A stretch of DNA of 64,000 nucleotides from Prevotellaceae bacterium (GTDB lineage: Bacteria; Bacteroidota; Bacteroidia; Bacteroidales; Muribaculaceae), in assembly GCA_021772015.1 (NCBI GenBank), contig JAETNS010000002.1:62001-126000 (forward strand), read 5' to 3'. Positions 4,226 through 60,174 of this stretch are shown here, one piece after another. The notes beneath the pieces are model-generated. The model had not been told where the DNA came from, did not search any database, and saw only the letters and a program-made list of their open reading frames with translations. The position numbers and the translations under genes were made by a program. Every line of letters begins with the position of its first letter. The stretch's first letter is position 1.

Positions 4226-4417
4226 CTCTCGCAGATTACGCAGATTACGCAGATTAACATAACCTCTCGCATATCATATTGATTAAAAGGCCCCTCCTTA
4301 AAAGGTCTCTCACAGATTACACGGATTACACAGATAGCCATCCGGCTGGAATCTGTGTAATCCGTGTAATCTGTGAGAGGTTATTTTAATCTGCGTAATC
4401 CGCGTAATCTGCGAGAG
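4226..4417. repeat. Nested long hairpin repeat, family B copy 1
   Basis: The outer arms are CTCTCGCAGATTACGCAG-type (4226-4256) and the matching TAATCTGCGTAATCCGCG-type (to 4417). The inner hairpin at 4307-4379 has perfect 29-bp arms beginning CTCTCACAGATTACACGG around a loop containing AGCCATCCGGCTGG. It lies 32 nt past the 3' end of the LRR gene at 4450 and upstream of the metK promoter. It may act as a terminator or insulator. Confidence 0.8.
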
Positions 4418-31170: not shown

Positions 31171-31959
31171 ATGATATCCCCCTTAGCCCATGTAGATCCG
31201 GCCGCCAAGATCGGCCAGAACGTCAAAATCTATCCCTTCGCTTTCATCGACAAGGATGTCGAGATCGGTGACAATTGCGAGATATATCCTTACGCGTCGC
31301 TGATGCCCGGAACACGTATGGGAAACAACTGCCGTGTATTCCAGGGGTCGATCATTTCCGCCGAGCCGCAAGACTTCCGTTTCAAGGGTGACGCGTCGCT
31401 TTGTGTCATCGGCGACAATGTGACCATCCGCGAGCATGTTATCATCAACCGCAGTATCCATCCCGCAGGAGAGACCCGCATCGGAAGCGAGTCATTTGTC
31501 ATGGCCGAGAGCCATATCGGCCATGATTCGGTTATCGAGGGGAAAGCCGTGCTCGGCAACGGAGTGATGATCGCCGGAGACTGCAAGGTTGGCAGCTGTG
31601 TGATACTTTCCTCCAACGCCATGCTCCATGAGGGATCCAAGGTCGGCGACTGGGTGATGATCAAAGGAGGTTGCCGTATTTCCGGGAATGTTCCTCCCTA
31701 CATCATCGTGGCCCATAACCCGGTGGCTTATTTCGGTGTCAACGCTTATGTCATGCGCAAGCATGGCTACACCGAAGAGCAGATCGACGATATCGCCAAG
31801 GCCTACCGTAACATCTACCAGAGCGGTATCTCCGTGTTCAACGCCATGCGCCGCATAGAGGCTGACCTCGAACCCTCCGAGATCCGCGACAACATCCTGA
31901 CCTTCATCCGCTCCAACAACTCGAAGATCGTCGCAATCCCGATCGACACCGAGGGCTGA
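31171..31959 (+). CDS. lpxA: LpxA-type acyl-ACP--UDP-N-acetylglucosamine O-acyltransferase
   Basis: The 262-residue protein is a left-handed beta-helix of hexapeptide repeats (ISPLAHVDPAAKIGQNVKIYPFAFI onward). The catalytic-His region reads AESHIGHDSVI, matching AHIAHDC in E. coli LpxA. The C-terminal helical domain includes NVPPYIIVAHNPVAYFGVNAYVMRKHGYTEEQI, as in the family. LpxA adds the first acyl chain to UDP-GlcNAc in lipid A synthesis. It stands alone here rather than with lpxC/fabZ or lpxD, so it may be a second copy with altered substrate or chain length. The gene ends 2 bp before a family A repeat, and no lipid A genes lie nearby. Confidence 0.85.
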   Translation: MISPLAHVDPAAKIGQNVKIYPFAFIDKDVEIGDNCEIYPYASLMPGTRMGNNCRVFQGSIISAEPQDFRFKGDASLCVIGDNVTIREHVIINRSIHPAGETRIGSESFVMAESHIGHDSVIEGKAVLGNGVMIAGDCKVGSCVILSSNAMLHEGSKVGDWVMIKGGCRISGNVPPYIIVAHNPVAYFGVNAYVMRKHGYTEEQIDDIAKAYRNIYQSGISVFNAMRRIEADLEPSEIRDNILTFIRSNNSKIVAIPIDTEG

Positions 31960-31961
31960 GT

Positions 31962-32135
31962 CAATTCATAATTCTTAATTCATAATTCATAATTGGCCAT
32001 CCGGCAGGCACCATTAGATGAGGTGTCTCCGGATGGCCAATTATGGATTATTGCCGTATGGCCAATTATGAATTAAGAATTAAGAATTGTCTCCGGATGG
32101 CCAATTATGAATTATGAATTAAGAATTATGAATTG
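31962..32135. repeat. AATTCATA repeat element, family A copy 3 (compound)
   Basis: The largest copy has a left arm of AATTCATAATTC units, GGCCATCCGGC, and at least three right-hand blocks each with CCGGATGGCCAATTAT or a variant (GCCGTATGGCC), separated by AATTAAGAATT units. It fills the whole space between the convergent LpxA-type gene and the first cassette gene and touches both stop codons. Confidence 0.8.
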
Positions 32136-32621
32136 TCAGATGTAGCTTGGGCGGAGGAGCGCGGGGGAGTTGGCGGGATCGAGCGTGCGGATGACAGCCG
32201 GGATCAAGGCGGAGGCTTGCGCCGCCTGTTCGGCTGCGATCGCCGCATCTACAGGCAGGTAGGCTTTCTCAAGCACAGTCAGGGCAAGCAGATGCTCCAG
32301 ATAGCGTTTGAGAACCATCATGGAGCCGTTTGTCATGGAGGCTGTGTGGTCGCCGAAATCAATCATGAGTGTCATCTCCTGCCGTGGATCATAAGGAGAG
32401 GCGGCGACACTGCCGTCATCTATCGACGAGTCCTCGACGTAGGGAGTAAGGTGTGTGACCAATATAGCGAACGCGGCCCTCACGGCCACGCGCAATGCCG
32501 GAAGGTTGTCGCGTGACAGTACCGGTGGGAAATTGTCAGGCCCGGAGCCTATGACAGCCGCGCGCAAAGCGGTAAGGGCGAAAATCTCGTCAGTGACGGA
32601 TCTGAAATTAAGGGAAATCAT
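32136..32621 (-). CDS. Unknown protein, last gene of phage-like cassette
   Basis: This 161-residue protein has no recognised family. It is Ala/Leu-rich and helical at both ends (PALRVAVRAAFAILVTHLTPYV; IAAEQAAQASALIPAVIRTL) with a polar middle, no signal peptide and no clear membrane segment. Its start overlaps the preceding gene by 4 nt (ATGA), indicating coupled translation. Small helical proteins at the end of head gene clusters are often head-completion or connector proteins, but that is only a guess from position. The stop codon abuts the family A repeat. Confidence 0.65.
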   Translation of the reverse strand: MISLNFRSVTDEIFALTALRAAVIGSGPDNFPPVLSRDNLPALRVAVRAAFAILVTHLTPYVEDSSIDDGSVAASPYDPRQEMTLMIDFGDHTASMTNGSMMVLKRYLEHLLALTVLEKAYLPVDAAIAAEQAAQASALIPAVIRTLDPANSPALLRPSYI

Positions 32622-33058
32622 TGTCTGGAGTGGCTTTTTCGGTTGAAACTTCTGGAGGATGGCGGTAAAACAGATCGTGCAGTCTTTCTTTTACGGGAAA
32701 AACGCCGGTAGAACAGCTTTTCGGCATATACCGGGGTCAGGAAATACCGCGACGGGGCGTCATTGTCGAGGATGTGGTCTATGGCAGTGAAGTCATCCTC
32801 TCCGGGATGCTCCGCCATCCGGCGGTCGGCCTTCGCTACAAGTTCCTCCCACATAGCGTCGGTCTCGCTCACGGGGCGGCCGGCGGGGTGTCGTTTGGCC
32901 GCGCGGTAGCGGCGGATGGCATACTCGGTAGAGAGACCGTAGCGCAGGGGCCGGGTGGCGAGCGCCAGCCCTACGGCCTCTTTTACCGAGAGGCATTTCG
33001 CGCCGTCGGGAGGATTGGCTATCAGCGACGCGATTACATGTGTGATTTCAGGGAGCAT
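32618..33058 (-). CDS. Unknown basic protein of phage-like cassette
   Basis: From the ATG at 33058 (MLPEITHVIASLIANPP) the product is 146 residues. A TTG at 33076 could add six. I do not recognise a family. The N-terminal half is helical; the middle carries an acidic patch (EHPGEDDFTAIDHILDNDAP); the last ~30 residues are strongly basic and Ser-rich (RRFSRKRKTARSVLPPSSRS), which could bind nucleic acid. It overlaps the next gene by 4 nt. A candidate -7 box (minus TAAATTTG, 33206-33213) lies about 150 bp upstream, so these last two genes may have their own promoter. Confidence 0.6.
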   Translation of the reverse strand: MLPEITHVIASLIANPPDGAKCLSVKEAVGLALATRPLRYGLSTEYAIRRYRAAKRHPAGRPVSETDAMWEELVAKADRRMAEHPGEDDFTAIDHILDNDAPSRYFLTPVYAEKLFYRRFSRKRKTARSVLPPSSRSFNRKSHSRQ

Positions 33059-33205
33059 ACAGATAACTGTTGACAATTAGTTGAAACTGTGGATGATTAG
33101 ATTAAGAGACTATGTTGCAAGTTCTTGACAAATGGTTGGAAACCAGTGAAAAGCGGTTGGCGGGAGAAGGTCGTCACCAAGCCCGGAGGGCGAAATTTCC
33201 AATGG

Positions 33206-33213
33206 CAAATTTA
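33206..33213 (-). promoter_or_regulatory. Candidate -7 element (TAAATTTG)
   Basis: The box lies in the 210-bp spacer between the portal gene and the two small downstream genes, reading toward the latter. No convincing -33 box. The spacer otherwise shows no ORF. Confidence 0.35.
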
Positions 33214-33268
33214 CGTCGGCGGTTGAGCTGAAACGCTGCTCTTCTATGTGAATGAATGTTAATTGTAT

Positions 33269-34681
33269 TCAGGCAAGCGACATAAGTCGGTTGCGCCATT
33301 CGGTGAAGTCGGCGAATGTCTTCATGAGGTCGAGGATCGAGACGGCTGAGTTGCGCATCTCGCTCTCATATCTCTCGGCACCGACGGCTCCGCTGACGCT
33401 CTTTCCCATCAAGGCGGAGTTTACCCCGGAAATATCCTCAAACAGCTGTATCTGGGTCTGGAGCATCTCTCTGGCTCCTATGTCGGCGGCGGGTGAGCTG
33501 ACCTGATGTGGTTCCGCGCCGTCAAAGGGATGGTATGGGATCACGGATCCAGGAGTGGCCCAGAGGTTGATGTATTTGTTCCACGGCTCTTTCTCTTCCT
33601 TGCATTCCACAGGGAAGAGCAGCGCCCCCTTGGCCGATACCCCCATGATATGGTCCATAAGCGTTATAAGGCGGTTGACATATTTCTGCTGTCCTATGAC
33701 ATCCTCCACCAGGGAGTGGATCTCCCCGCCGACGAGGGGATACATTTTTATGGCGTAGGGCAACGATCCGTCGGCCAACGGAGAGTCGAAACTGTCGAGG
33801 ACAGTGCCGTCCGGGGCGAAGAAGCGCCCGCGCCATACGGGGGCTATCTCCCAACGACTCCGGATCAATGGCAGTCTGGCCTTTCGCCGGGCGTTATTGC
33901 GTTTTTTCAGGCGACCGGCCTCCTCGGCCGGAAGGATACCGAAAGTGGCTGTCATCGGGTCATGGCAACGCAACCGCTCGCGGCATTCGAGGGTCCAGAC
34001 CTCTATCACCCTGCAACGTCCGTCGGGAGCGTGGAAGAACGAGCCTTCCTCCAAACCCGTGGAGGGGAGGAAAAGCCCCGGATCGGAAGCGGCCGAGGCA
34101 TAGAGCTTCCTCAATGCGGCAGCCCGCGAGGGGGAATCCCCGGCGAAACGCATCAACAGTTCGGCAATAGACATGTCGTGGAGAGAGCCGGCCAGTTCGA
34201 TGTCGCAACCCCTGCCGTCAGTGAATGCGTTGACAAAAAAACGGTCAGGAGGGATGTTGTCAGCCCAGATCCCGGCCCCGGCCGGACGATGCTCGCGGCG
34301 GATGCGGTGGATCGCCATGCCGGATATCAGGAATTCCTCAAGGGTTCTCGCGTCAAGTTCGTCGAGACGGTTAATGCCGCCGGGATCGACGCGTCGGGTC
34401 GGCTCCGGATTTTCGAGGCGTTCCATCCGGAAACGTCCGACGACGGCCTTTACCATCCGGCGAATGAGGTTGTTTGTCAGAGGCTTGCACCCCGCGCGGA
34501 TAGCCTCTTCCTCTTCGGTGATGAGGTTCTTGTCGCGGTCAAGAACGGTGTCGCTCCATTGGTCGCCATATGTGAAGCGGCAATATCGGCGACGACGAGA
34601 ACGCAAGGGAGCCATACGCTCCCAGGCGGTATGTGCCACTTCGAGGATCATTCTCGCGCGGGCGGTTTCGGTGTCAGTCAT
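33269..34681 (-). CDS. Phage portal-like protein
   Basis: From the ATG at 34681 (MTDTETARARMILEVAHTAWERM) the product is 470 residues. It resembles phage portal proteins: an N-terminal helix leading to FTYGDQWSD, then KPLTNNLIRRMVKAVVGRF, a central alpha/beta wing, and a C-terminal stem region with LVEDVIGQQKYVNRLITLMDHIM and QIQLFEDISGVNSALMGKS. The phrase DISGVN-x-ALMG is common in portals of tailed phages. Portals form the dodecameric ring through which terminase pumps DNA. The frame is intact over its whole length. Unusually, it lies downstream of the capsid gene and not beside terL. The start at 34717 is less likely because it overlaps the previous gene's stop. Confidence 0.75.
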   Translation of the reverse strand: MTDTETARARMILEVAHTAWERMAPLRSRRRRYCRFTYGDQWSDTVLDRDKNLITEEEEAIRAGCKPLTNNLIRRMVKAVVGRFRMERLENPEPTRRVDPGGINRLDELDARTLEEFLISGMAIHRIRREHRPAGAGIWADNIPPDRFFVNAFTDGRGCDIELAGSLHDMSIAELLMRFAGDSPSRAAALRKLYASAASDPGLFLPSTGLEEGSFFHAPDGRCRVIEVWTLECRERLRCHDPMTATFGILPAEEAGRLKKRNNARRKARLPLIRSRWEIAPVWRGRFFAPDGTVLDSFDSPLADGSLPYAIKMYPLVGGEIHSLVEDVIGQQKYVNRLITLMDHIMGVSAKGALLFPVECKEEKEPWNKYINLWATPGSVIPYHPFDGAEPHQVSSPAADIGAREMLQTQIQLFEDISGVNSALMGKSVSGAVGAERYESEMRNSAVSILDLMKTFADFTEWRNRLMSLA

Positions 34682-34713
34682 AGCAGGTAAGTAATTTAAG
34701 GTCAATAAGCCAA

Positions 34714-35253
34714 TCAAAGGGTTGCCAGGGCGCGGGGCTGGAATTCATAGAGGGGATTACCCTCCTCGTCGGTGACGCGCATGGCGCATAGGAGGTAGTC
34801 GAGACTGTCGGTCTCGTCATACGCCGGGCTTAACAGCTCCAGACGGTTGCCGGGGTGGATGACCGCCACCGGGGCGGCTACTCCCCCTGCGCAATATGGC
34901 GCGTATTGCCTGCGGGCGAGTGGGGAATCAGGCTTGACGATCCGGGCGGGAGAGAGCCAGCTGCGGAGCTTGACTGCGACCGGTCTTACGCAATCATCCG
35001 GCAGTTGGGTTATCATGGACGGTACGAGGGTCATGGTGAACTTTACCGATGTCTCCTTTGCCAGATCATGCAGCACAAGCAATCCGGGATCCCCCTCGGT
35101 CAGAAGCTGCTCCATCCATAGACGGCATTCCGTACGGGCTATGGATTCCAGGTCAGTGCCGTCGCTGCGCGAGATGCGGCAATCACTCCGCAAAGGCTCG
35201 TAGCCCTTGCGGAGGAGCCACAGACGCGTCATTTCCTGTTCGGTGAGAATCAT
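34714..35253 (-). CDS. Unknown protein between capsid and portal genes
   Basis: The 179-residue protein has no recognised family. It starts MILTEQEMTRLWLLRKGYEPL and has a mixed alpha/beta composition without a signal peptide. It lies 22 bp after the capsid gene and 32 bp before the portal gene on the same strand. Proteins in this position in phages are often head-tail adaptor or neck proteins; this is inference from position only. Confidence 0.65.
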   Translation of the reverse strand: MILTEQEMTRLWLLRKGYEPLRSDCRISRSDGTDLESIARTECRLWMEQLLTEGDPGLLVLHDLAKETSVKFTMTLVPSMITQLPDDCVRPVAVKLRSWLSPARIVKPDSPLARRQYAPYCAGGVAAPVAVIHPGNRLELLSPAYDETDSLDYLLCAMRVTDEEGNPLYEFQPRALATL

Positions 35254-35275
35254 GAGGTCAGCGTCTTGGTGAGGT

Positions 35276-36736
35276 TCATGACTTGTGGACTATTCTCATA
35301 TGGCTTCCGGGATAACGTAGCACCAGACAGGAGGCTTCGGTGATGACGATGGCGTCGGTGTTGCGGACACCTGCCGAACGCAGGTTGAGGCGTTCCGTGC
35401 GGAAGGGCACATGGCTGTACTTGGTGATGTACTCCGGGTCGATCACCATTCCGCCGTCCGGCATACCGCATTGGTCGAAGACCTCCGAGAGCAAGACATA
35501 GAGGGTTCCGAATTTGGAGTGGATCTCCGTGAAGTCGAGGCCCCACTTGGTGGTGGTCTGGTCGGCCGACAGGAAGCGGGAATGCTCGATCTTGTGTAAC
35601 TGCTCGATAAGCCCTGTGCCACCGATCAGCACTTTCCGGGAGGATCCGGCGTTGTTGGTGAATGCTCTCTTGCACAGCTCGATAAGCGATGCCTCGGAGT
35701 TGAGCTGGTCATACTCGAAAGTGTTGTCGGTCTGGTTCCAGATACCACCGGTCAGAAGGATCTCCTGGTTCTTGCCCGGATCGGTGATTGTTGTCTTGTG
35801 GCCGAATAGGAAGTTTTTCTCCATCCCCATGCGCATGTCTATTATCGCCGCCTCCTCCTGATCGGAGAATGTCCAGCCAACCTCCTTGTTGGCGATCTTC
35901 ATGAAAGTCGACTGCTCGACCTGAGCCTTGAAGATCTGGCAGAAATTGGTCTCCTTTTTGGGAAGAGCCTCGAACTGCGCGGTCATCACGTCAAGTTCGG
36001 CTGCCGCGCGGCCCATCCTGACAAGTTTTGTCGCGGCGGGGAGAGCCGGGACTACCGTGTCATCCGATCCGTCGGCGAAGTTGTTGACAGCCATGACTTT
36101 GATGGAGTCTGTCTCGCGGCTGACCACATACAGCACCAGTGATCCTCCTTTGGAGGCTTTTACAGAGGGGACGAGCAGGGTTGTCGACGGCTCGAAGACA
36201 GCAGGGGTCTTGACTTTCAATTCGATCACACCTGTAACCGGGGTGCGGCCCGGATCATATGCCTCTTTTACCTCATCCTCTCCCGGACGGGTGTCGACCG
36301 AATAGTAGTCGACCTTCATTGATCCGCACAGGCGTGCTCCGCCGTAGCGTGAGATCTGGTCGAGAGGGGTCGACATGGGGCGGATCTTGACGATGCGGTC
36401 GTCAATCTCGTTTCGCAGCAGACCGGGAGAGACAGTCTCAGCGAGTTTCGTTGTCAAGGGAGCGTCGACCACATGTTCCCCTTTGCCGGTTACTCCGGCC
36501 ACGGTCGCGAACGCCATCGCCACGCCGTCTGACGCTCCGTCGAGCAACATCCCGACAGCTATGCCAGTAGTCACAAGCAATAGCATGGTGAGCGGTTTTT
36601 TGTTTTTGGAGAGTATTTTCTTTACGCTTTTGATCACGGCCTTGACGGCCTTTGCCACAGCTTTGGAGGCGACAGTTACTGCGTCGCTGATACGGGTGGC
36701 TTTCTGGAGGATGTTGAAAATTTTGTTGGTGTTCAT
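35276..36736 (-). CDS. Phage major capsid-like protein with N-terminal hydrophobic helix
   Basis: In this 486-residue protein residues ~85-486 resemble HK97-fold major capsid proteins of the SU10-like group: LISRYGGA-type start (here DQISRYGGARLCGS), the central MKIANKEVGWTFSDQEEAAIIDMRMGMEKNFLFG, and the C-terminal KVLIGGTGLIEQLHKI and LYVLLSEVFDQCGMPDGGMVIDPEY. The first 84 residues are unusual. They form a Lys/Ala-rich amphipathic stretch (ATRISDAVTVASKAVAKAVK) followed by KKPLTMLLLVTTGIAVGMLL, a likely membrane segment at about 47-67. This could be a cleaved delta-domain/scaffold-like extension or a membrane-anchoring adaptation. The gene is intact and directly follows the acidic 131-residue protein. 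Confidence 0.75.
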   Translation of the reverse strand: MNTNKIFNILQKATRISDAVTVASKAVAKAVKAVIKSVKKILSKNKKPLTMLLLVTTGIAVGMLLDGASDGVAMAFATVAGVTGKGEHVVDAPLTTKLAETVSPGLLRNEIDDRIVKIRPMSTPLDQISRYGGARLCGSMKVDYYSVDTRPGEDEVKEAYDPGRTPVTGVIELKVKTPAVFEPSTTLLVPSVKASKGGSLVLYVVSRETDSIKVMAVNNFADGSDDTVVPALPAATKLVRMGRAAAELDVMTAQFEALPKKETNFCQIFKAQVEQSTFMKIANKEVGWTFSDQEEAAIIDMRMGMEKNFLFGHKTTITDPGKNQEILLTGGIWNQTDNTFEYDQLNSEASLIELCKRAFTNNAGSSRKVLIGGTGLIEQLHKIEHSRFLSADQTTTKWGLDFTEIHSKFGTLYVLLSEVFDQCGMPDGGMVIDPEYITKYSHVPFRTERLNLRSAGVRNTDAIVITEASCLVLRYPGSHMRIVHKS

Positions 36737-36748
36737 GGTGTTTTGGGA

Positions 36749-36792
36749 TTAAATAATGGGAGTAATGGGAGTTGCGGGAGTGATGGGAAGAC
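36749..36792. repeat. Short tandem TGGGAGT-type repeats before the capsid gene
   Basis: Four imperfect copies of a 9-mer (ATGGGAGTA, ATGGGAGTT, GCGGGAGTG, ATGGGAAGA) lie between the capsid gene and the 131-residue gene upstream. A degenerate relative occurs at 10513. They fill the capsid gene's immediate leader. Confidence 0.6.
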
Positions 36793-36799
36793 TGCAAAG

Positions 36800-37195
36800 T
36801 CAGCGGTCCCAGATCGAGACGCGGGGGTTGTTGAGGATCATCGGGTGGGAGTTTCCCTGCCAGTCTGATTGGGATGGAAGGTTATCCGGAGCCGCTGTTG
36901 TCCCGACAGGTGATGTCTGTCGCTCGTATACGGCAGGCTCTCTCATTAGTTCCGCGATCCGTTCGTTGCGTCCGCGTAGATATCCCCGCCTTTCGGCTTC
37001 GGCGGTTAGAGCCTCTATCGCCGCCGGGTCAGGCTGTACCTCTTGTGATGCGGCTACAGCTTCAGGTGCGGGTTCAGGTTCAGGTGATGGCTCGGGTGCG
37101 GGTTGATTTTCCTCGGCCGGCTCTTGTCGGGTCACTTCTTGTGGGGCCGTTTCCTCCGGGGCTGTGTCTTGTGGTGACGGTGTGTTTTTGTTCAT
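36800..37195 (-). CDS. Acidic Pro/Glu-rich protein upstream of capsid gene (scaffold-like?)
   Basis: The 131-residue protein has its first 60 residues low in complexity, acidic and Pro/Glu/Ala-rich (EETAPQEVTRQEPAEENQ, then PSPEPEPAPEA). A short helix follows (IEALTAEAERRGYLRGRNERIAELM) and then a polar tail. Acidic helical proteins just upstream of a capsid gene are often scaffolding proteins, which suits the position, but I see no family signature. A -7 box (minus TAACTTTG, 37259-37266) lies 64 bp upstream, so this gene probably leads a 131-aa / capsid / 179-aa / portal transcript. Confidence 0.65.
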   Translation of the reverse strand: MNKNTPSPQDTAPEETAPQEVTRQEPAEENQPAPEPSPEPEPAPEAVAASQEVQPDPAAIEALTAEAERRGYLRGRNERIAELMREPAVYERQTSPVGTTAAPDNLPSQSDWQGNSHPMILNNPRVSIWDR

Positions 37196-37258
37196 AAAAA
37201 ATTATACATATAAGAGGTTTTATAAAAAAGAAAGGAAAGTTGTTTGTCATTGACATCG

Positions 37259-37266
37259 CAAAGTTA
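37259..37266 (-). promoter_or_regulatory. Candidate -7 element for the head gene operon (TAACTTTG)
   Basis: It matches TAnnTTTG on the minus strand, 64 bp before the start of the 131-residue gene. The -33 region lacks a clear TTG. Confidence 0.5.
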
Positions 37267-37407
37267 CAATGGTTTTAACGCGGGGTGTAGGAGAAATTGT
37301 TACTATGCTTGTTGTTGGATCGCAATGCGCTGAAAATCAGTTTGTGGAAAAAATGGCTACGTCATGTCAGGAACCTGTTACTTTTTCAATTATTTTTGGT
37401 TGCGAAA

Positions 37408-37439
37408 TTTGGATTTAGACAAATTAGTTTGTATCTTTG
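37408..37439 (+). promoter_or_regulatory. Strong plus-strand promoter inside the phage-like cassette
   Basis: TTTG (37408-37411) and TATCTTTG (37432-37439) are 20 bp apart, a near-perfect Bacteroidetes promoter. It points away from the head genes and into the region with no convincing ORF. Confidence 0.8.
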
Positions 37440-37445
37440 CAGACA

Positions 37446-37860
37446 GAAGGACATTGAATTTGCAATCCGAAGCCAGCTCCTTTTCCACTGTCTGGAAATC
37501 CGCCAATCTTTTTCCCCCATCCAAGGATAAGAGAGTTTCGCAACCGTTCAAGAATTATAATGTTCTGCCTATTGGGCGCGGGAGAAACATGTGGATTTCA
37601 ATCTTTGGATCGGGCGCTTGGCGGTGCCTCAGACAGGATTGCGATCCGGTTTCCCCGCGCCTTTCGCGTAAGGCTCATGGTTGCGGATGTCCATCTTCAA
37701 GTTTGGATGTAATTTGTGACATAGCATTGCATTTGCGAATGATTGAACATTGCGAAGTAATATTAGCATATCCATTGCTTATTTACACATATAATTGACT
37801 GGTAATATTACTACGTATGCTGGGCAAGGAAAGTCGAGAGATTTCCCTTGCCTCTTTTTT
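37446..37860 (+). ncRNA. Candidate structured non-coding RNA (about 410 nt)
   Basis: The unit is bounded by the promoter at 37408-37439 and a terminator at 37822-37860. Nested pairings are visible: GGCGCGGG (37575-37582) with CCCCGCGCC (37653-37661), enclosing GGATCG (37607-37612) with CGATCC (37642-37647). No convincing ORF is present; the best is a 50-codon frame at 37560-37712 without an obvious family. I looked for landmarks of RNase P RNA and tmRNA (such as the tRNA-like end) and did not find them. It is antisense in orientation to the surrounding phage-like genes but overlaps none. It could regulate the cassette, act as a packaging or structural RNA, or be host-derived. Start and end are predicted, not measured. 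Confidence 0.55.
37822..37860 (+). terminator. Rho-independent terminator of the candidate ncRNA
   Basis: GGCAAGG(AAA) at 37823-37832 pairs with (TTTC)CCTTGCC at 37842-37852, with a short loop, followed by TCTTTTTT. Confidence 0.85.
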
Positions 37861-37888
37861 ATCCCCCCAACGCTCTTATTCCGTAAAA

Positions 37889-38031
37889 CTCTCGCAGATT
37901 ACGCAGTGAAGATAAAAAACTCTCGCAGATTACACGGATTACACAGATAGCCATCCGGCTGGAATCTGTGTAATCCGTGTAATCTGTGAGAGATTATTTT
38001 TAATCTGCGTAATCCGCGTAATCTGCGAGAG
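37889..38031. repeat. Nested long hairpin repeat, family B copy 3
   Basis: The architecture is the same as at 4226-4417: an inner hairpin (37920-37992) with loop AGCCATCCGGCTGG, flanked by CTCTCGCAGATTACGCAG on the left and TAATCTGCGTAATCCGCG on the right. It lies 39 bp beyond the 3' end of the terminase gene and just after the ncRNA terminator. The cassette therefore carries the same intergenic repeats as host genes. Confidence 0.8.
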
Positions 38032-38070
38032 TTCTTGCCCTGTGATCCGCGTAATCTCGTGGGGATCAGA

Positions 38071-39963
38071 TCATCCCCAGGAGGCGAGGTATTCGGTGAG
38101 CTGTGCGGAGGCATCGTCGTCGACAGTCTCCTCGCGACAGACATGCAGGGCGATGGCGCGGGTCATCAGCATGTCGTCATGACGGCCCGGGCGCGCCCCG
38201 TATGATCCGTTCGGGCGGCGTTCATAGAAGTCGAGTTCGTCGCAGGCTTCCCGGCAACGCTCAATATATCGTCCGTCGCGGACCGCGCCCACAAGCCCGG
38301 AGATGATCATCTGTTTGGTCTGGCGGTTGGTGTGGAAACCCGGGATGCGGCAGTTGCGGCTCTGGCCCGGGGCGCGACGGCGGTAAAGGTTGCGGTAATG
38401 GCGGTAAAGCTCATGGAGGATCAAAGCCCCCTGGCGGTATGAGGCTTCCCCGCCCCCGCTGTCATGGCTTTCAAGGGTGTTGCTCTCGAAGACAAGTCGC
38501 GCCTTGTTGTAGTATGTGGCGATCATCGCCCCTTTCCATGCCAGCAGGTCATGATCGATATGGCCTCGCCACTGGGCGACTACCTCCGGCGTTGAACCTT
38601 TACTCATGACGGCGATGACGCTCCAGTCGGCTTTGTCGCTAAGACCGCCGACATCTACTGCCACCACGTATGACGCTCCCTCCACGGGGAGCTGCCAGAT
38701 ATGGAGTCCTCCGGCTGGATCCGCCTCGAACCTGACACCGCCAAGACATGCCGGACCTGAAATCTGTCCCTTTGGGTCGCAGACCTCACCGATAAGAAGC
38801 GGCTCGGCGCATCCTCGCCGCAATATCTCGGTCTTTTCAGGATTGAACACATTGCTTGAGGTCGAGGTGAAAGCCTCCAGAGCGGTTGATGGGAACTCGC
38901 TTTTCATCTTGGAGTGGTCTTTCATCTCGCGACGACGACGGTTGTACCAATGGATCTGTTCGAGGGTCAGCTTCTCCTCCTCCCACAATGCCCGTTCGTA
39001 GGGATCCATCCTCTCCCAAAGCTCACGCGCCTCCCCGACAGTGGGGAAGCCAAGCGAGTAAGCCTTTATCTCATGCCAGGCCACGAAGACAGCCCTTTTC
39101 CCGCTTTCCCCGCTCTCGGCCCGGAGCCATTCCTCATGGAAGAATGAGCCGACCCCGTCGGCGGTCGACTCCATGACGATCATTGTCATCGGGGCCATAG
39201 CCACGGAGCAGTATATCGCCCGCACCGCATCCCAGGGGTCTTTCCCTGGAGTGGCTTTCCAATAAGCCGCCTCGGTAAGATGGACCAGGGCCGCGTCAAC
39301 CCCGCGCACCGCGTTTGGATTGGTCGATGCTGCCAGATAGACACGGTTGTCGCGCCCTTCGAGCTGTAGTATTCCGCGCGAGGTCTTAAGCCGGGGAGGG
39401 TTTTCCCCTTCCCACAGCTCTTCGGGATAATGGGTCAGCATGTCGGCATAAAGGTTCAGCACCACCTGTGTGCCGGTTTTCTCCGCTCCGCAGACTATTG
39501 CGTGGCAACATGTGGCGAGCACCGCCTGGATCCAGGCCATATACATCTCCACGACCGTAGATCCGCCCCATTGCCGCGCTTTCAGGATCACCATCCTCAT
39601 CGGCCTTCCAGCCCGGCGGTCAGCTTCCAGAAGTTTGACAACCCGTCTCTGAGGGCGGTTGAGGATGAAAGGGACAATGCGCCGACTGTTCTTGTCCTTG
39701 ATGCGGCAGCATTTGGCCGCCCAGTACTCGAAGTCGTGTCGGCAACGCAGGCGCGCCCAGCTGAGCGGATCGCGCGCCGAGGGGTATTTGGGGTCGTCAA
39801 GCATCTCGCGTGGGACAAGCTCGCGTCCTTCGGTCCAAGGCTCGGGGCCGACCTCCACGCGGTCGCCGGAACAACCCTTCCCGCTGACCGGGTCGAAATG
39901 TTCCAGGCGGTCGCGCAGGATGTTGCGACGGCGGTTCTCTTCCCATATTTCGTCGAATGTCAT
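38071..39963 (-). CDS. terL: Phage terminase large subunit
   Basis: From the ATG at 39963 (MTFDEIWEENRRR) the product is 630 residues. The ATPase half has a Walker A-like KARQWGGST (residues 128-136, the arginine-type P-loop of terminases), a Walker B-like AALVHLTEA (224-232) and a coupling motif MESTADG (264-270). The nuclease half has three acidic positions in the expected order: D437 in YVVAVDVGG, E493 in LVFESNTLES and D596/D597 in RHDDMLMTRAIALH. All parts needed for an ATP-driven DNA-packaging motor appear intact. No small subunit is recognised nearby. The long upstream frame to 40056 overlaps the previous gene and lacks support. Confidence 0.92.
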   Translation of the reverse strand: MTFDEIWEENRRRNILRDRLEHFDPVSGKGCSGDRVEVGPEPWTEGRELVPREMLDDPKYPSARDPLSWARLRCRHDFEYWAAKCCRIKDKNSRRIVPFILNRPQRRVVKLLEADRRAGRPMRMVILKARQWGGSTVVEMYMAWIQAVLATCCHAIVCGAEKTGTQVVLNLYADMLTHYPEELWEGENPPRLKTSRGILQLEGRDNRVYLAASTNPNAVRGVDAALVHLTEAAYWKATPGKDPWDAVRAIYCSVAMAPMTMIVMESTADGVGSFFHEEWLRAESGESGKRAVFVAWHEIKAYSLGFPTVGEARELWERMDPYERALWEEEKLTLEQIHWYNRRRREMKDHSKMKSEFPSTALEAFTSTSSNVFNPEKTEILRRGCAEPLLIGEVCDPKGQISGPACLGGVRFEADPAGGLHIWQLPVEGASYVVAVDVGGLSDKADWSVIAVMSKGSTPEVVAQWRGHIDHDLLAWKGAMIATYYNKARLVFESNTLESHDSGGGEASYRQGALILHELYRHYRNLYRRRAPGQSRNCRIPGFHTNRQTKQMIISGLVGAVRDGRYIERCREACDELDFYERRPNGSYGARPGRHDDMLMTRAIALHVCREETVDDDASAQLTEYLASWG

Positions 39964-40006
39964 GTGCTTTTCTGTAAGAATAAGGATATAAAATGTTGAA
40001 TTCCTT

Positions 40007-42589
40007 TTATCGGAGGAAAGTCTCGTCATGAATGGCAAGGTCTGGGGAGGCCGCAAGCTTCACGGATGCTTCGAGCCAGGGACGGCGTGGGGAGGCGAGC
40101 CTGACGGTGACGGGCGCGTTGACCGGCCCGTCGAAATGCAACCGCAGGAGCGGTTCGGCGATTTCCGTCCCCCGGTCTCCCGAAAGGGTGAAAGTGCCGC
40201 TTAGCGAGGAGGCGAAGATATTGACTTTCAGCCAATGGGGATCTTTGGCGGTAGACATGCGTCTGGTCATCTCCACCTCCATCTTTCCGGGTTTTGTCTC
40301 GTCGGAAAGGTCAAAGGTGGCGTTGTCAGTTGCCATCAGAAGACAACCTCTGTCTGCGGCGAACCTGAAAGTGGGAAAGGATCTGGCATTGCTGTTGTCT
40401 GCGCCTCCCGATTGATTGATATTGATTGAGGGAAGCCGGGCTTCGATGATTTCTCCCTTTTCGGTGACTCGCAGGAGCCGCCCGGAGTCATCATCCATAG
40501 CCATCCATACCTCACGGAATCCTCCCTCCCATCCGATGGTGGGAGAGCCGGAGCAAGGGGCGGCTTTATATCCGGCATTGCCGCCCGGCCGTGAGGCCAG
40601 AAGCCGGGGGATGGAGGCCGCCACGGTTGTGACCTTCTGGCCCGAGATACGGATCAGGTCATCCCCGGCGTAAGCGAGAAGGGAGGCTCCCGAAGGTCCC
40701 GATTCATCGCATACGGCCCCGGCAGACATCACCGGGCGGGTGTCTACAGGCGCGACAGATCCGAAACGGCCGCTCTCGCCGACAGTGGCGAGGATTGTGC
40801 CCGCCTCTCCGAAAAATAGAAGTTTCATACGCGCGAAATCCCAGCCTGAGCCGGAACGGGGAAGCATTCTGACCGCGTGTATATGGTCAGGAGATATGCG
40901 TCGGCTGTCGATGACGCGCCCCAGATCGGAGCTGTGGCAGATCTCCGCAATTCCCGCCTCCATGCGCTGCGGCGGTTCCTCTCCCGATGGGAGATATGCT
41001 TCTGCCGTCTGTGTCAACTTTATGCGTTCCAGACCGTAGGAGACATGACAGGCGATTCCTGATCCGGGGAGGGCAGTGAGCGGAAAACTCTCCTCATAGA
41101 CTATGCCTGTCGGTGAGAGGTATGTGACAGTCATTTCGGTCGCCTCTTCAGAGGGGTATGACAAAACCGGCGACAGGGAGGATGGAGCGTTGCCCAGTCC
41201 GCCGGTCTCCCTTTTCAGCCTGACCTCCCCGGCCGCAGTCGAGAGCCTGACACTTGTGGCGAGTCGCCAGACGGTGCCGTCCCCATCGTCGTGCGAGGCC
41301 ACGAAACAGTCGGGAGACCAACCGCCGACACTCTTGCGGAGGGGATTGCAGAGGATTGTGACATCTCCGGCCTCCAAGGCCGCCGACCAGCAGTGTCTCT
41401 CCGTGCCGGGAATATTCTGTTGGCCGGCAACAATGGGAGAAGTAGGGTCAGGCGCATTGAAAGTTACCATTGCCCCGGCTGCGCCGATCCCTCCTCCGAA
41501 AGGATTGCAGAACTCAGCGGCGATCCGCATCGGGGATTTTATCCCCTCGAATCCCAGACTGCGGAGACGCGCCTTGTCGGTCACCGTGCCGTTTGCGAAT
41601 CCGGGGATTTTCGAGGTGACTGATACCATCCCCGACTGTGAGTTACGCTGAATGCCGTGAGGAGTGGCCGTGTCCTTAATGAGCGGGTCGATCTCGGCCG
41701 TCATTTCGATGACAAGCCTGCTGACAATCCTGTCCCAGGGGGAGGGAAGTGGAGGCGGGGCGATCACCCCCGGACGATATACCCCCATATCCATCCTCCC
41801 CTCAGAGAGTGTCTGCATCGAATCGGTGGAAGTCTGGACGATGCTACCGGTCGCCGAGAACCCGTCGACGGTCGACAGTGCGACAGTGGGGCCGACTGCA
41901 AGGGTGTTTCCCGCCGCGTCAAGCAGCCTGTATCGTGCCATCGCGGGCTGCACGCAATAGCGCGACCCGGCTGCCCGCCGGCGCAGGGACTCATATGTCG
42001 CCACAATGGCGTTGCCAAGCTTTTGGTTGTCAGCCGCGCATAGCTGCGAGCCGGAACTGCCCGTGCTTCCTCCGGTGAGTTTTATCGCAGGGACCTGTCC
42101 GTAGAGGGTGTTGTACTGGGTGGCCGCAAGTTGTATGGGAGGCAACTGGGGCATAGGTCCAAGAAAAACCACGTTCAGATCCTTGTCGTAAGTCAGGTAC
42201 CGGTCAGGCTTGTGGGAGATCAGCAGCCTGATCACCCCCCGCGCCGCTGTCACGGCCAATATCGGCCTCCCCGGCAATACCGCCAGCTCGACCGGGTTGT
42301 CATTCGCCATTGAATCCCCCTCAATATTGGTTGAGTCCTCCTCGATATTGTAATACAGCTTGTTTCCCGAGTCAACCGACAGGCATATCTCGCGCCCATC
42401 GCCAAACGGGGAGAACCGCGCGAAAGGGAGCACCCCGACATCGTTGACTTTCCGGGGCATTCCCGCCCTGCGCCAGATCCCCTTGTCAGCCACATCCCGC
42501 CGCAGATTGACCACACTACGGGCTATCTCATCAGTCTTCACCCTCTCCGGCATCGCCCCCTTTCCACTTGTTTTCTGTGTGTTTCTCAT
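40007..42589 (-). CDS. Large unknown protein, first gene of phage-like cassette
   Basis: The product is 860 residues from the ATG at 42589 (MRNTQKTSGKG). Alternatives are 42553 (MPERVKTDE), which has a purine-rich GGAAAGGGGG before it, and 42643. The protein lacks a signal peptide and looks like a long beta-rich, possibly propeller-like chain with recurring pieces such as LAVLPGRPILAVTAARGVIRLLIS, FREVWMAMDDDSGRLLRVTEKGE and SFPTFRFAADRGCLLMATDNATF. Such composition occurs in tail-hub or DNA-stabilising proteins of short-tailed phages, so a virion role is plausible but unproven. It lies 43 bp before terL, so the two are probably co-transcribed. hipT is 67 bp upstream on the same strand. Confidence 0.65.
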   Translation of the reverse strand: MRNTQKTSGKGAMPERVKTDEIARSVVNLRRDVADKGIWRRAGMPRKVNDVGVLPFARFSPFGDGREICLSVDSGNKLYYNIEEDSTNIEGDSMANDNPVELAVLPGRPILAVTAARGVIRLLISHKPDRYLTYDKDLNVVFLGPMPQLPPIQLAATQYNTLYGQVPAIKLTGGSTGSSGSQLCAADNQKLGNAIVATYESLRRRAAGSRYCVQPAMARYRLLDAAGNTLAVGPTVALSTVDGFSATGSIVQTSTDSMQTLSEGRMDMGVYRPGVIAPPPLPSPWDRIVSRLVIEMTAEIDPLIKDTATPHGIQRNSQSGMVSVTSKIPGFANGTVTDKARLRSLGFEGIKSPMRIAAEFCNPFGGGIGAAGAMVTFNAPDPTSPIVAGQQNIPGTERHCWSAALEAGDVTILCNPLRKSVGGWSPDCFVASHDDGDGTVWRLATSVRLSTAAGEVRLKRETGGLGNAPSSLSPVLSYPSEEATEMTVTYLSPTGIVYEESFPLTALPGSGIACHVSYGLERIKLTQTAEAYLPSGEEPPQRMEAGIAEICHSSDLGRVIDSRRISPDHIHAVRMLPRSGSGWDFARMKLLFFGEAGTILATVGESGRFGSVAPVDTRPVMSAGAVCDESGPSGASLLAYAGDDLIRISGQKVTTVAASIPRLLASRPGGNAGYKAAPCSGSPTIGWEGGFREVWMAMDDDSGRLLRVTEKGEIIEARLPSININQSGGADNSNARSFPTFRFAADRGCLLMATDNATFDLSDETKPGKMEVEMTRRMSTAKDPHWLKVNIFASSLSGTFTLSGDRGTEIAEPLLRLHFDGPVNAPVTVRLASPRRPWLEASVKLAASPDLAIHDETFLR

Positions 42590-42656
42590 GACAATTGTTT
42601 TTGCCACGAAATTACAACTGAAATCAGTCCTCAAGTAGGACAATTTGTTATTTTGG

Positions 42657-43652
42657 CTATGGACGTAACATTGACTGGCGGTATCTCATCGAGGATAGAT
42701 AACGTTCTTTAAGGGGTGTGGAAAGGAAAGAACGGGCGATTAAGTTTGCCGCTGCCGGATTGTCAGTTGAGAAACGGGTGATTTCTGCTTCCACCAGTCG
42801 TTTAGGTAATCCTATCCGCTTCCCGAATTCAATGAAATCCGATCCATTTGGCTGTCTGACATCGGAAAGATCCATCCCTTCGCGGAAAAGACCTTTGTCA
42901 AGGGCGAAGATCCGAGGTTCGGCAAGGTGTAGGGTTGTGTTCATAAGGTCATAGGCCGGAGACAACCGATATTCCCCGCCTTGGTTGATCAACGAGAAGT
43001 TCTTGAGGTGGGCATCATCGTTAAGAGTTATGAAGTTGAATACCACTACCTGAAAGAATCTCAGCAAATCGATCATGGCTGCCTTGACATGTTGTTTTAT
43101 AACATCGCCGCACTCTTCATAACTTCCGTTTACATACTTGAAGTCGCTCCCTCCATTTGCTTTTGACAAGCCCATCAGGGCCGCGAAGTCTTCTTGCTGA
43201 TATTTGCCCTGTGGATGTACGTCGAATCGGCGGGTTATATACGCCGCTTCGCCATCATTGAAGAAACAGAGGCCGTTAGGGGCTGTCTCTATACGGTAGA
43301 TCTGCGTGGCAAGCTGCATTGTAAGGTTTTCATTCGCCGCACAAAATTCAGGATTAAGTATGTGGAGGGCAACAGGACGAGGCTTAAGTATGTGGGTGCT
43401 TTGCTCTCCTTTTTTTGAATAACGCAACGAGTCGTCTTCCGTTACCATGCCGAATTTCGGTTGCGCGCCTGAAAGGGAGAGGCGACCTGAATTTTTCAGG
43501 GCCTCTTTGGCTTCCAGAGAGTTGGTCGAGGGGGAGGGTATCGCCAGTTCATGTCTTATGGTAGCCCCGTTGAACAGGACTTTACGGGCATCGGGTGAAT
43601 AAGTCGAGTGACCCGGCGCGAGGGTGGAGGGGCATACGGACAGTTCCATCAT
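42657..43652 (-). CDS. HipT/HipA-like serine/threonine kinase toxin
   Basis: The 331-residue protein corresponds to the catalytic part of HipA, without the N-terminal subdomain, which is encoded by the separate gene upstream. Visible motifs are the Gly-rich SLSGAQPKFGM loop (residues 59-69, with serines that are autophosphorylated in relatives), a catalytic loop NDDAHLKN (211-218; D213 the likely base and N218 a metal ligand) and SPAYDL (231-236; D235 the DFG-like Asp). HipA phosphorylates glutamyl-tRNA synthetase and HipT tryptophanyl-tRNA synthetase, arresting growth; the target here is unknown. The start overlaps the previous gene by 4 nt. It is the last gene of the hip operon, and the cassette follows on the same strand. 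Confidence 0.9.
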   Translation of the reverse strand: MMELSVCPSTLAPGHSTYSPDARKVLFNGATIRHELAIPSPSTNSLEAKEALKNSGRLSLSGAQPKFGMVTEDDSLRYSKKGEQSTHILKPRPVALHILNPEFCAANENLTMQLATQIYRIETAPNGLCFFNDGEAAYITRRFDVHPQGKYQQEDFAALMGLSKANGGSDFKYVNGSYEECGDVIKQHVKAAMIDLLRFFQVVVFNFITLNDDAHLKNFSLINQGGEYRLSPAYDLMNTTLHLAEPRIFALDKGLFREGMDLSDVRQPNGSDFIEFGKRIGLPKRLVEAEITRFSTDNPAAANLIARSFLSTPLKERYLSSMRYRQSMLRP

Positions 43653-43981
43653 CGGATTTCTTTTATTGGTCTGACGGTTACGGCTCCTATGGTGTCGAAC
43701 CGGGCTGTGGCCAGCAGGATCCCGAAGTCGTCATCGGGATCGATACGCAGTATCGCGGCCTGTAATTTACGGTTGTCACCTTCCGACAGCAGATTAGCGA
43801 AAAACGGAAACAGATATCCCGAGATATAAGGTTGAGGCTGAAGGGGCATTGTCAGGCTGATGGGTTCATTGCCCGGTGAATCAAGATAGCACGTATCATA
43901 TGTGAACTCATAAGATCCGTCGTTGTTCTCGCGAAGGATTCCAGCTTTCACACCATGTAGCATTACTTCACACTGTCTCAT
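43649..43981 (-). CDS. HipS-like protein (separate HipA N-terminal domain)
   Basis: The 110-residue protein matches the N-terminal subdomain of HipA (MRQCEVMLHGVKAGILREN...YEFTYDTCYL, then SLTMPLQPQPY and FPFFANLLSEGDNR). In E. coli O127 HipBST the equivalent small protein HipS is the antitoxin that neutralises HipT. The arrangement of HTH gene, this gene and kinase, with overlaps or gaps of a few bases, is the same. The family assignment is good; the antitoxin role is inferred from that system. Confidence 0.85.
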   Translation of the reverse strand: MRQCEVMLHGVKAGILRENNDGSYEFTYDTCYLDSPGNEPISLTMPLQPQPYISGYLFPFFANLLSEGDNRKLQAAILRIDPDDDFGILLATARFDTIGAVTVRPIKEIR

Positions 43982-43986
43982 GGCTT

Positions 43987-44190
43987 TCAGTCTTTGAGGG
44001 TTATGATGAATTGCAGACCGATCGAATCGAGTACCGACATTACGCTGTCAAGGCGTGGGTTGCCTTCGCCTCGCTCGATGGAAACCAATGTGTTCACACT
44101 TATCCCCGAGAGGGCGGCCAGTGTCGGTTGTGACACATTGAGGGATTTACGCCGTTGTCTTATCTGTTGTCCGATCTGTTTTGTATCCAT
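43987..44190 (-). CDS. HipB-like HTH (XRE) antitoxin/repressor
   Basis: From the ATG at 44190 (MDTKQIGQQIRQRRKSLNVSQ) the product is 67 residues. It is essentially one Cro/C1-type helix-turn-helix (QPTLAALSGISVNTLVSIERG for the HTH core, then DSVMSVLDSIGLQFIITL). A longer frame to 44325 runs through the operator region and is rejected. HipB proteins bind palindromes in their own promoter and the HipA kinase. Three matching palindromes lie directly upstream. The gene leads the hip operon and is followed after 5 bp by the HipS-like gene. Confidence 0.88.
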   Translation of the reverse strand: MDTKQIGQQIRQRRKSLNVSQPTLAALSGISVNTLVSIERGEGNPRLDSVMSVLDSIGLQFIITLKD

Positions 44191-44195
44191 GTTAG

Positions 44196-44215
44196 AATCG
44201 CAATATATTGTGATT
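44196..44215. promoter_or_regulatory. hip operator 1
   Basis: AATCGCAATATATTGTGATT, an imperfect 20-bp palindrome, 5 bp from the hipB start codon and just downstream of the -7 box, so a bound repressor would block transcription. Confidence 0.85.
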
Positions 44216-44220
44216 TTGGC

Positions 44221-44228
44221 CAAAGTTA
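44221..44228 (-). promoter_or_regulatory. hip operon -7 element
   Basis: TAACTTTG on the minus strand, lying between operators 1 and 2. TTTG (44254-44257) lies 25 bp upstream, somewhat far, and overlaps the edge of operator 2. Confidence 0.6.
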
Positions 44229-44256
44229 CGAAAAAATCCGCATAATAAGCATGCAA

Positions 44257-44276
44257 AATCGCAATATGTTGCGATT
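44257..44276. promoter_or_regulatory. hip operator 2
   Basis: AATCGCAATATGTTGCGATT, the most symmetrical copy, starting exactly 61 bp after operator 1 and overlapping the presumed -33 region. Confidence 0.85.
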
Positions 44277-44304
44277 TTCGGGTTGCAGATGGGTTAAAAC
44301 GGGA

Positions 44305-44350
44305 TTGCCGGCGGCAAAATCGCAATATATTGTGATTTCGCCGACGGCAA
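44305..44350. promoter_or_regulatory. hip operator 3 inside a 46-bp imperfect palindrome
   Basis: AATCGCAATATATTGTGATT (44318-44337) starts exactly 61 bp after operator 2. Outer arms TTGCCGGCGGC and GCCGACGGCAA extend the symmetry to 46 bp with about three mismatches. The element lies 57 bp past the 3' end of sulP and could also act as that gene's terminator. Confidence 0.75.
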
Positions 44351-44407
44351 TCAGCTGTATGGGGGATCGGGAATGGATGAGCCGTGAATGGGCGGAGGAG
44401 GAGCGGG

Positions 44408-60040: not shown

Positions 60041-60174
60041 TCTCAGAGAATATTCTCTCTTGGATAATATTCTCTCACGATTACGCGTAGATAATATTCT
60101 CTCACAGATTACACGGATTACACAGAAAGCCATCCGGATGGCTTTCTGTGTAATCCGTGTAATCTGTGAGAGCT
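60041..60174. repeat. Family B hairpin copy 4 with a perfect 74-bp palindrome
   Basis: Short CTCTC units with GATAATATTCTCTC (60041-60098) lead into 60099-60172. This is a loopless perfect palindrome of two 37-bp arms, beginning CTCTCACAGATTACACGG and centred on GCCATCCGGATGGC. It lies between the SusE/F-like gene and the tRNA terminator. Confidence 0.85.

Follow-up and report, generated by a model that had tools for sequence, protein, structure and literature searches.

Gene transfer agents (GTAs) of the RcGTA type, found in Alphaproteobacteria, resemble siphoviruses: the tail is long, and the cluster, of about 15 kb, is mostly intact. According to the main text of a report on the gut bacterium Faecalibacterium, FpGTA I occupies 10.5 kb, encodes a small terminase (TerS), a large terminase (TerL), a portal, a scaffold and a major capsid protein (MCP), and forms DNA-containing particles; FpGTA occurs in all twelve Faecalibacterium genomes examined by the authors, and some strains have a second operon with baseplate, fibre, receptor-binding protein and lysis genes, particles with about 9 kb of DNA having been observed (PMC12946183). 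The same text places GTA-like packaging mainly in the Ruminococcaceae and Oscillospiraceae and reports lateral transduction in Bacteroides, while the term "Muribacul" is absent from it (PMC12946183). Here we describe a cassette from the Muribaculaceae which may represent a comparable system. Its eight frames are open, share the minus strand and occupy positions 32136-42589 of a stretch of 64,000 nucleotides (G000:C13:62001-126000; hereafter the window) from a genome of 2.86 Mb in 48 contigs.

We consider it probable, at roughly two in three, that the cassette represents, in contiguous form, a particle system of phage origin, similar to a short-tailed GTA, which was domesticated in an ancestor of the Muribaculaceae and several related families. 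A fuller account, towards which we lean with less assurance, would be a GTA of the Bacteroidota derived from a short-tailed phage like BS-TP4 and domesticated once, before at least six Bacteroidales families diverged; its genes would since have dispersed, and it would move host DNA among gut Muribaculaceae, with a structured RNA of its own in the window's genus and a membrane-anchor-like capsid N-terminus in about half of the sampled genomes. The initial annotation had proposed a domesticated particle, a GTA or a satellite. A domesticated particle is strongly supported because the genes are present family-wide, are congruent with rpoB, are under purifying selection and have kept the catalytic residues of the terminase; among the three options a GTA fits best. 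A GTA-like mode of working is proposed because the parts retained (shell, motor, nuclease, adaptor, nozzle) come with no genome of their own and are inherited with the host and under selection. The satellite fits badly, as the cassette holds no integrase and mostly single copies are inherited with the host at scattered sites.

Judged by homology, seven of the eight genes belong to the head, packaging and neck set of a short-tailed phage, and the other has no known role. Profiles made from proteins of the family were searched against 19 proteins of the temperate Bacteroides phage BS-TP4, the small set to which the expectation values (E) for that phage refer. A counterpart was found for all eight cassette proteins, those of C131 and H161 being weak. 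These matches and those to solved structures indicate derivation from phage head, tail and packaging genes, as expected of a GTA. In 5' to 3' order the genes are:

40007-42589, minus strand: A860, 860 residues, predicted tail nozzle (hub) of the short-tailed-phage type (BS-TP4 gp26, E 1e-26; Foldseek)
38071-39963, minus strand: terL, 630 residues, large terminase with packaging ATPase and nuclease (phrog_38407, phrog_2; T4 gp17; BS-TP4 gp7)
36800-37195, minus strand: C131, 131 residues, likely scaffold (directly before the capsid gene where found; BS-TP4 gp10, 263 residues, E 1e-4)
35276-36736, minus strand: MCP, 486 residues, with an N-terminal hydrophobic segment (PF17236 SU10_MCP, E 7e-47; BS-TP4 gp11)
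34714-35253, minus strand: E179, 179 residues, predicted head-tail adaptor (BS-TP4 gp13, E 9e-14; Foldseek)
33269-34717, minus strand: portal, 482 residues (PF16510 P22_portal, E 2e-12; phrog_156; BS-TP4 gp4)
32618-33076, minus strand: G152, 152 residues, putative small terminase (BS-TP4 gp9, E 4e-11; position in phage relatives)
32136-32621, minus strand: H161, 161 residues, no assigned function (BS-TP4 gp24, E 7e-5)

The terminase matches both the ATPase and the nuclease parts of T4 gp17. Conservation of the ATPase and nuclease residues examined extends to 110/110 TerL rows (30 coded and 80 named loci, with at least five genomes in both sets), two of which have a conservative S/T change, and the packaging motor may be functional. 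Among solved structures, the capsid protein matches the VP1 capsid 9in6 (E 8.5e-11) and the portal profile has one weak match, 8jov (E 0.026). A portal of the PF04860 (Phage_portal) type was also considered; it has no match in the own genome, and the portal is of the P22 type. C131, with matches in 42 of the 80 viral loci, is likely the scaffold by its position and weak homology. G152 is called a putative small terminase because its homologue in phage loci sits upstream of TerL on the same strand; it was recovered in 32/37 family genomes, in one of which (G004) it is merely a fragment on a phage-type contig. As for H161, its counterpart gp24 lies two genes from the nozzle gene gp26 in BS-TP4, and it also matches a phage contig (L191, E 3e-9), where the homologue stands just after the capsid gene; two loci (L106, L113) have the order G152-H161-A860-TerL.

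The initial annotation had recognised no tail genes, a statement that no longer stands: AlphaFold models, which it had proposed as a check, pointed to a tail nozzle at 40007-42589 and a head-tail adaptor at 34714-35253. The A860 model (predicted local distance difference test, pLDDT, 86.7) finds its best Foldseek matches in tail chains of SU10, Pa223, Kp7, P22 (gp10), Carin 1 and LME-1, with E of 4e-11 to 1e-7 and template-modelling (TM) scores of 0.18-0.43; we take these chains to be nozzles. The E179 model (pLDDT 81.6) matches a tail-barrel chain of phicrAss001 (7qoj_D, E 1.7e-4) and, more weakly, SU10 and LME-1 (E >0.05). Owing to TM-scores of 0.2-0.5 we treat both as predicted assignments to a fold class, backed by homology to phage structural genes. 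By sequence, the A860 protein of the window has no PHROG or Pfam match, and the A860 profile found nothing convincing among solved sequences; of 50 members compared with PHROGs, 15 match the unnamed phrog_32516 and one each, weakly, phrog_511 (internal virion protein), phrog_8094 and phrog_10775.

In other respects the first description of the cassette was sound: terminase, portal and capsid genes stand with five others in about 10 kb, on one strand and with open frames, and the reported absence of integrase, repressor, replication, lysis and protease genes is borne out by profiles. Screened against Pfam, PHROGs and NCBIfam at E up to 1, 0/8 cassette proteins matched integrase, repressor, replication, lysis or phage protease families. 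The set that would mark a prophage (integrase, repressor, replication and lysis genes beside structural ones) was not found in the cassette and the adjacent genes tested. Nor is the cassette a mobile unit with integrase or excision genes, as a satellite would be; as in a GTA, it has no replication or integration genes of its own beside those for the particle.

The distribution of these genes is broad and follows the host. We sampled 99 genomes, the own included, at E 1e-3, of which 59 (G000-G058) belong to the Muribaculaceae (family f1). Matches were found in 55 genomes for the MCP, 57 for TerL, 56 for the portal and 57 for A860; within the family, hand counts gave 52, 54, 53 and 54 of 59, respectively, and all four in 47. 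The family genes are mostly single-copy and intact, a few of the counted copies being phage-type (the G004 portal, TerL and portal of G040, and G042). In a wider survey of 225 f1 genomes at least 90% complete, the MCP was present in 207, of which 33 matches were weak, leaving by hand count 174/225 strong ones (E not above 1e-90); four of the 174 (G208, G213, G215, G246) score 1e-95 to 1e-119, in the phage-type range. Outside one genus, g30, the strong match is present in 164/177 genomes. Relatives of TerL, of which 80 out of 246 were retained, bear names such as Muribaculaceae, Heminiphilus, Muribaculum and Paramuribaculum, among others, and some have other labels. They include likely isolates, judging by record name: Heminiphilus faecis AM35, whose fetched stretch also holds A860, G152 and H161, Muribaculaceae Isolate-002 and Isolate-013. 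Separately, four short IMG/VR "viral" contigs (L160-L163), with 70-73% identity in the MCP, seem to be the host cassette filed wrongly under viruses.

At the level of the order, a TerL search at E 1e-60 was positive in 32/393 genomes. Nine are in f1 and 18 in five further Bacteroidales families (f22, f28, f54, f61, f94; two to six each), the 18 being the positives found and not a share of each family. The rest, one each in five other families, look phage-type or were not followed. MCP and portal were present in 21/21 genomes checked, namely these 18, another two from f1, and G508, in which the genes are grouped in the manner of a phage. In the 18 the portal frame has 620-732 residues, and A860 gave weak matches in the two checked (G079, G085).

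Vertical inheritance and retention by selection, both expected of a GTA, are visible in this family-wide presence, in tree congruence and in substitution rates. Quick trees (LG+G4) were compared with an rpoB tree by their shared splits against 500 label shuffles, after rows without rpoB had been dropped (MCP 4/49, TerL 4/30, portal 3/34). The MCP shares 20/42 splits (45 taxa), TerL 16/23 (26 taxa) and the portal 16/28 (31 taxa), while the shuffles averaged 0.2-0.3 shared splits and never exceeded 3, 2 and 2, respectively. We rely on splits because the distance correlation with rpoB is modest (r 0.29-0.58). These trees bear on whether the genes could reflect repeated, independent infection by related phages. 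BS-TP4-like temperate phages do infect Bacteroides and some family genomes hold phage-type copies; however, host-type MCPs share nearly half of their splits with rpoB, and the 25 phage MCPs sampled group in a single clade (100/100), separate from L164 and 25 host-type rows, in a tree from which the phage-type copies of family genomes were left out. We attach very little probability to repeated infection.

Purifying selection acts on the core genes. In comparisons of the window with its close relatives G007, G012 and G013, the ratio of non-synonymous to synonymous substitution rates (dN/dS), another check proposed at the outset, is about 0.1: 0.095-0.129 for the MCP, 0.089-0.111 for the portal and 0.087-0.101 for TerL. 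The same comparisons gave 0.18-0.28 for E179, 0.21-0.27 for G152 and 0.24-0.27 for H161; C131 (0.33) and A860 (0.34) were measured on one pair each. Between G007 and G012 (dS 0.67-0.75), MCP, portal and TerL stand at 0.09-0.13. A decaying prophage whose frames are open by chance would account for the missing replication, integration and lysis genes and for those relatives with broken or missing genes. It is hard to reconcile with such ratios, or with presence across the family and five further families in congruence with rpoB, and we find it scarcely credible. The initial annotation had named two signs of decay, homologues confined to fragments of complete prophages and disrupted frames among close relatives, and the outcome speaks against a decaying prophage.

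The arrangement of the genes is less constant than their presence. In G007 (L011, compared with window positions 31171-46138) the whole set is contiguous but inverted between the same flanks (lpxA, SulP), and G012 and G013 are in accord as far as their contigs extend. Twelve MCP loci of other genera (L019, L023, L026, L029-L034, L037, L040, L049) have no portal nearby, and their genomes do have one elsewhere; in further genera MCP and portal stay together. On single contigs, G020 has MCP at 603,617, portal at 605,439, A860 at 830,754 and TerL at 1,559,763, and G446 has portal at 1,148,873, MCP at 1,395,210 and TerL at 1,427,567. Among the 18 genomes of the further families, the genes are at their closest about 5 kb apart (portal and TerL of G294), and at the other extreme they are separated by hundreds of kb or stand on different contigs. 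Around TerL in the 80 named loci, A860 is a neighbour in 54, G152 in seven and capsid genes in four, and H161 recurs; other recurrent neighbours, clustered and read by sight and in part annotated, are host-like. In two loci (L086, L089) terL directly follows ftsZ, at the end of a murD-ftsW-murG-murC-ftsA-ftsZ run (in L089, ftsZ alone was tested).

A GTA capsid is expected to be too small for its own gene set; with hundreds of kb between genes, as in some of these genomes, no single packaged fragment would contain the full set. A satellite or other mobile element, moving its own genes in a borrowed or own capsid, was also weighed. The compact 10-kb size in the window's genus, and the inversion in G007, would suit such an element. 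Against it stand the lack of integrase, excision and replication genes in the cassette, the mostly single copy per genome, inheritance with the host, and the separation seen in G020 and G446; we judge a satellite highly improbable. If the domesticated, GTA-like system is real, a DNA-packaging particle found across the family would be a route of gene exchange which prophage surveys can miss, as its genes are often unclustered.

How such a system would operate can be outlined. A head would be assembled around the portal by capsid protein and scaffold and, the phage genome being gone, the terminase would load host DNA into it. Adaptor and nozzle would then seal the head, forming a short tail, and particles, once released, would inject their DNA into kin. 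Particle formation, host-DNA cargo, release and transfer are what we infer from the genes.

Several observations weigh against this interpretation. Firstly, the system is known here from its genes, with particle, packaged DNA and transfer being predicted; the cassette has no tail fibre, ejection or lysis genes, for which no genome-wide search was made. Secondly, the record of inheritance is imperfect. Of the well-supported splits, 7/27 for the MCP, 4/18 for TerL and 3/19 for the portal are in conflict between gene tree and rpoB. At least one of the four genes is missing from 12/59 family genomes, some being incomplete assemblies, and frames with stops occur in TerL (G022, G031) and portal (G035, G053). 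The strong MCP is found in 10/48 genomes of genus g30, which suggests that the capsid gene was lost or diverged fast in that lineage. Distant pairs reach dN/dS of 0.27, several values being undefined through saturation, and rpoB is much more constrained (0.008-0.075). Thirdly, some identities are soft. The structural matches of A860 and E179 are partial, the A860 model also resembles unrelated beta-propellers (e.g. DDB1, E 2e-7, ranked after the phage tails), and the small-terminase identity of G152 is putative, resting on position. Relative to phage portals, those of the family are shorter by about 125 residues at the C-terminus (425-532 residues in 32 rows vs 624-678 in 41), most stopping near residue 531 of 657.

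A rival account is that of domesticated phage genes kept for another use, such as mixed-capsid interference with related infecting phages, or particles whose task is killing or storage and not DNA transfer. Entry of related phages into the group is evident from phage-type copies in G008, G015, G040, G042, G346 and G412; the genes are dispersed and not kept as a single operon, and the cassette lacks lysis genes. However, a dominant-negative role would need neither the ATPase and nuclease residues, which are kept throughout, nor a conserved adaptor and nozzle, and PADLOC, at E up to 0.01, matched no cassette protein to a defence family. We regard another use as unlikely, though deserving of attention, and retain the GTA-like interpretation.

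The capsid N-terminus merits separate comment. A hydrophobic segment is present in 25/49 host-type MCPs (29/45 in a partly duplicated set), including that of the window and those of L026, L029, L031 and L034, and in 71/76 phage MCPs (L164-L239). Ten of those 25 have a lipobox-like motif (such as LSGC), which is odd for a capsid protein. The rhomboid gene of BS-TP4 (gp8) has a homologue in 71/80 viral loci (e.g. L240:8427-8945) and, by a position rule, lies between TerL and the small-terminase homologue in 42 of the 71, an arrangement shared by BS-TP4; a gp8-like rhomboid was sought in the Muribaculaceae loci and not found. The phage rhomboid may release a membrane-anchored capsid protein, an idea worth testing.

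Three further features accompany the cassette:

31962-32135: host-type hairpin repeat with 43-nt perfect arms, bordering the cassette
37889-38036: host-type hairpin repeat within the cassette, in the interval from terL to C131
37441-37866, plus strand: candidate structured noncoding RNA, about 430 nt long and antisense to the cassette, in the gap that separates terL from C131, upstream of the scaffold and capsid genes

The cassette had been said to end at host-type repeats. Both are host-type and the first lies at the border, whereas the second, given as 37889-38031, lies inside; related copies occur elsewhere in the window (4234-4409, 60107-60173, 2602-2668). One flank holds lpxA, TolC and AcrB (the last assigned by sight), the other a HipA operon and a SulP transporter. 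The HipA operon (42657-44325, minus strand) adjoins the cassette and consists of a kinase in two frames (HipA_C, Couple_hipA) and a helix-turn-helix gene; no HipA-operon genes are found at the corresponding place in G007 (L011).

The RNA candidate is about 80% identical to DNA in G012 and G007 (blastn), and its fold has a z of -4.3, with 0/100 shuffles as good. Its 3' hairpin, which resembles a terminator, has seven pairs changed on both sides (0/500 shuffles), the structure having been predicted from the same alignment. A model of the 3' part matches the window and 9/10 other MCP loci of the genus (L010, L011, L013-L018, L024, all nine in the training set; none in L012). Among MCP loci of other genera it found none below E 0.03, and the candidate has no match in Rfam. 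It could be a packaging or regulatory RNA.

Among temperate Bacteroides phages of 64-68 kb, MCP and TerL were matched in BS-TP4, BKO1-TP3 and BF1-TP2, and all eight genes in BS-TP4. The latter additionally carries integrase, repressor, replication and endolysin genes, very large gp3 and gp14, and the rhomboid gene; it differs in its portal of 657 residues and in its MCP, which belongs to a separate clade. Free phage, the longer-portal form of the five families and the shortened portal of the Muribaculaceae would offer a domestication series that can be followed gene by gene. No earlier report of such an agent in the Bacteroidota was found in the open-access literature, preprints lying outside the search; if our interpretation is true, and within that literature, this would be the first such system in the phylum and an independent origin of GTAs. 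With agents of the RcGTA type it shares domesticated, vertically inherited head, packaging and tail genes, spread over a large clade with parts encoded off the main cluster; compared by description, it differs in being SU10/P22-like, short-tailed and often present as single genes. FpGTA I/II, as set out in the main text of its report and set beside our locus by description, belongs to another phylum, whereas the Muribaculaceae set is often dispersed, family-wide and known from genes. Like the cassette of the window, FpGTA spans about 10 kb as a single operon, encodes TerS, TerL, portal, scaffold and MCP, is of the short-tailed type and occurs in gut bacteria, and it is the closest described case.

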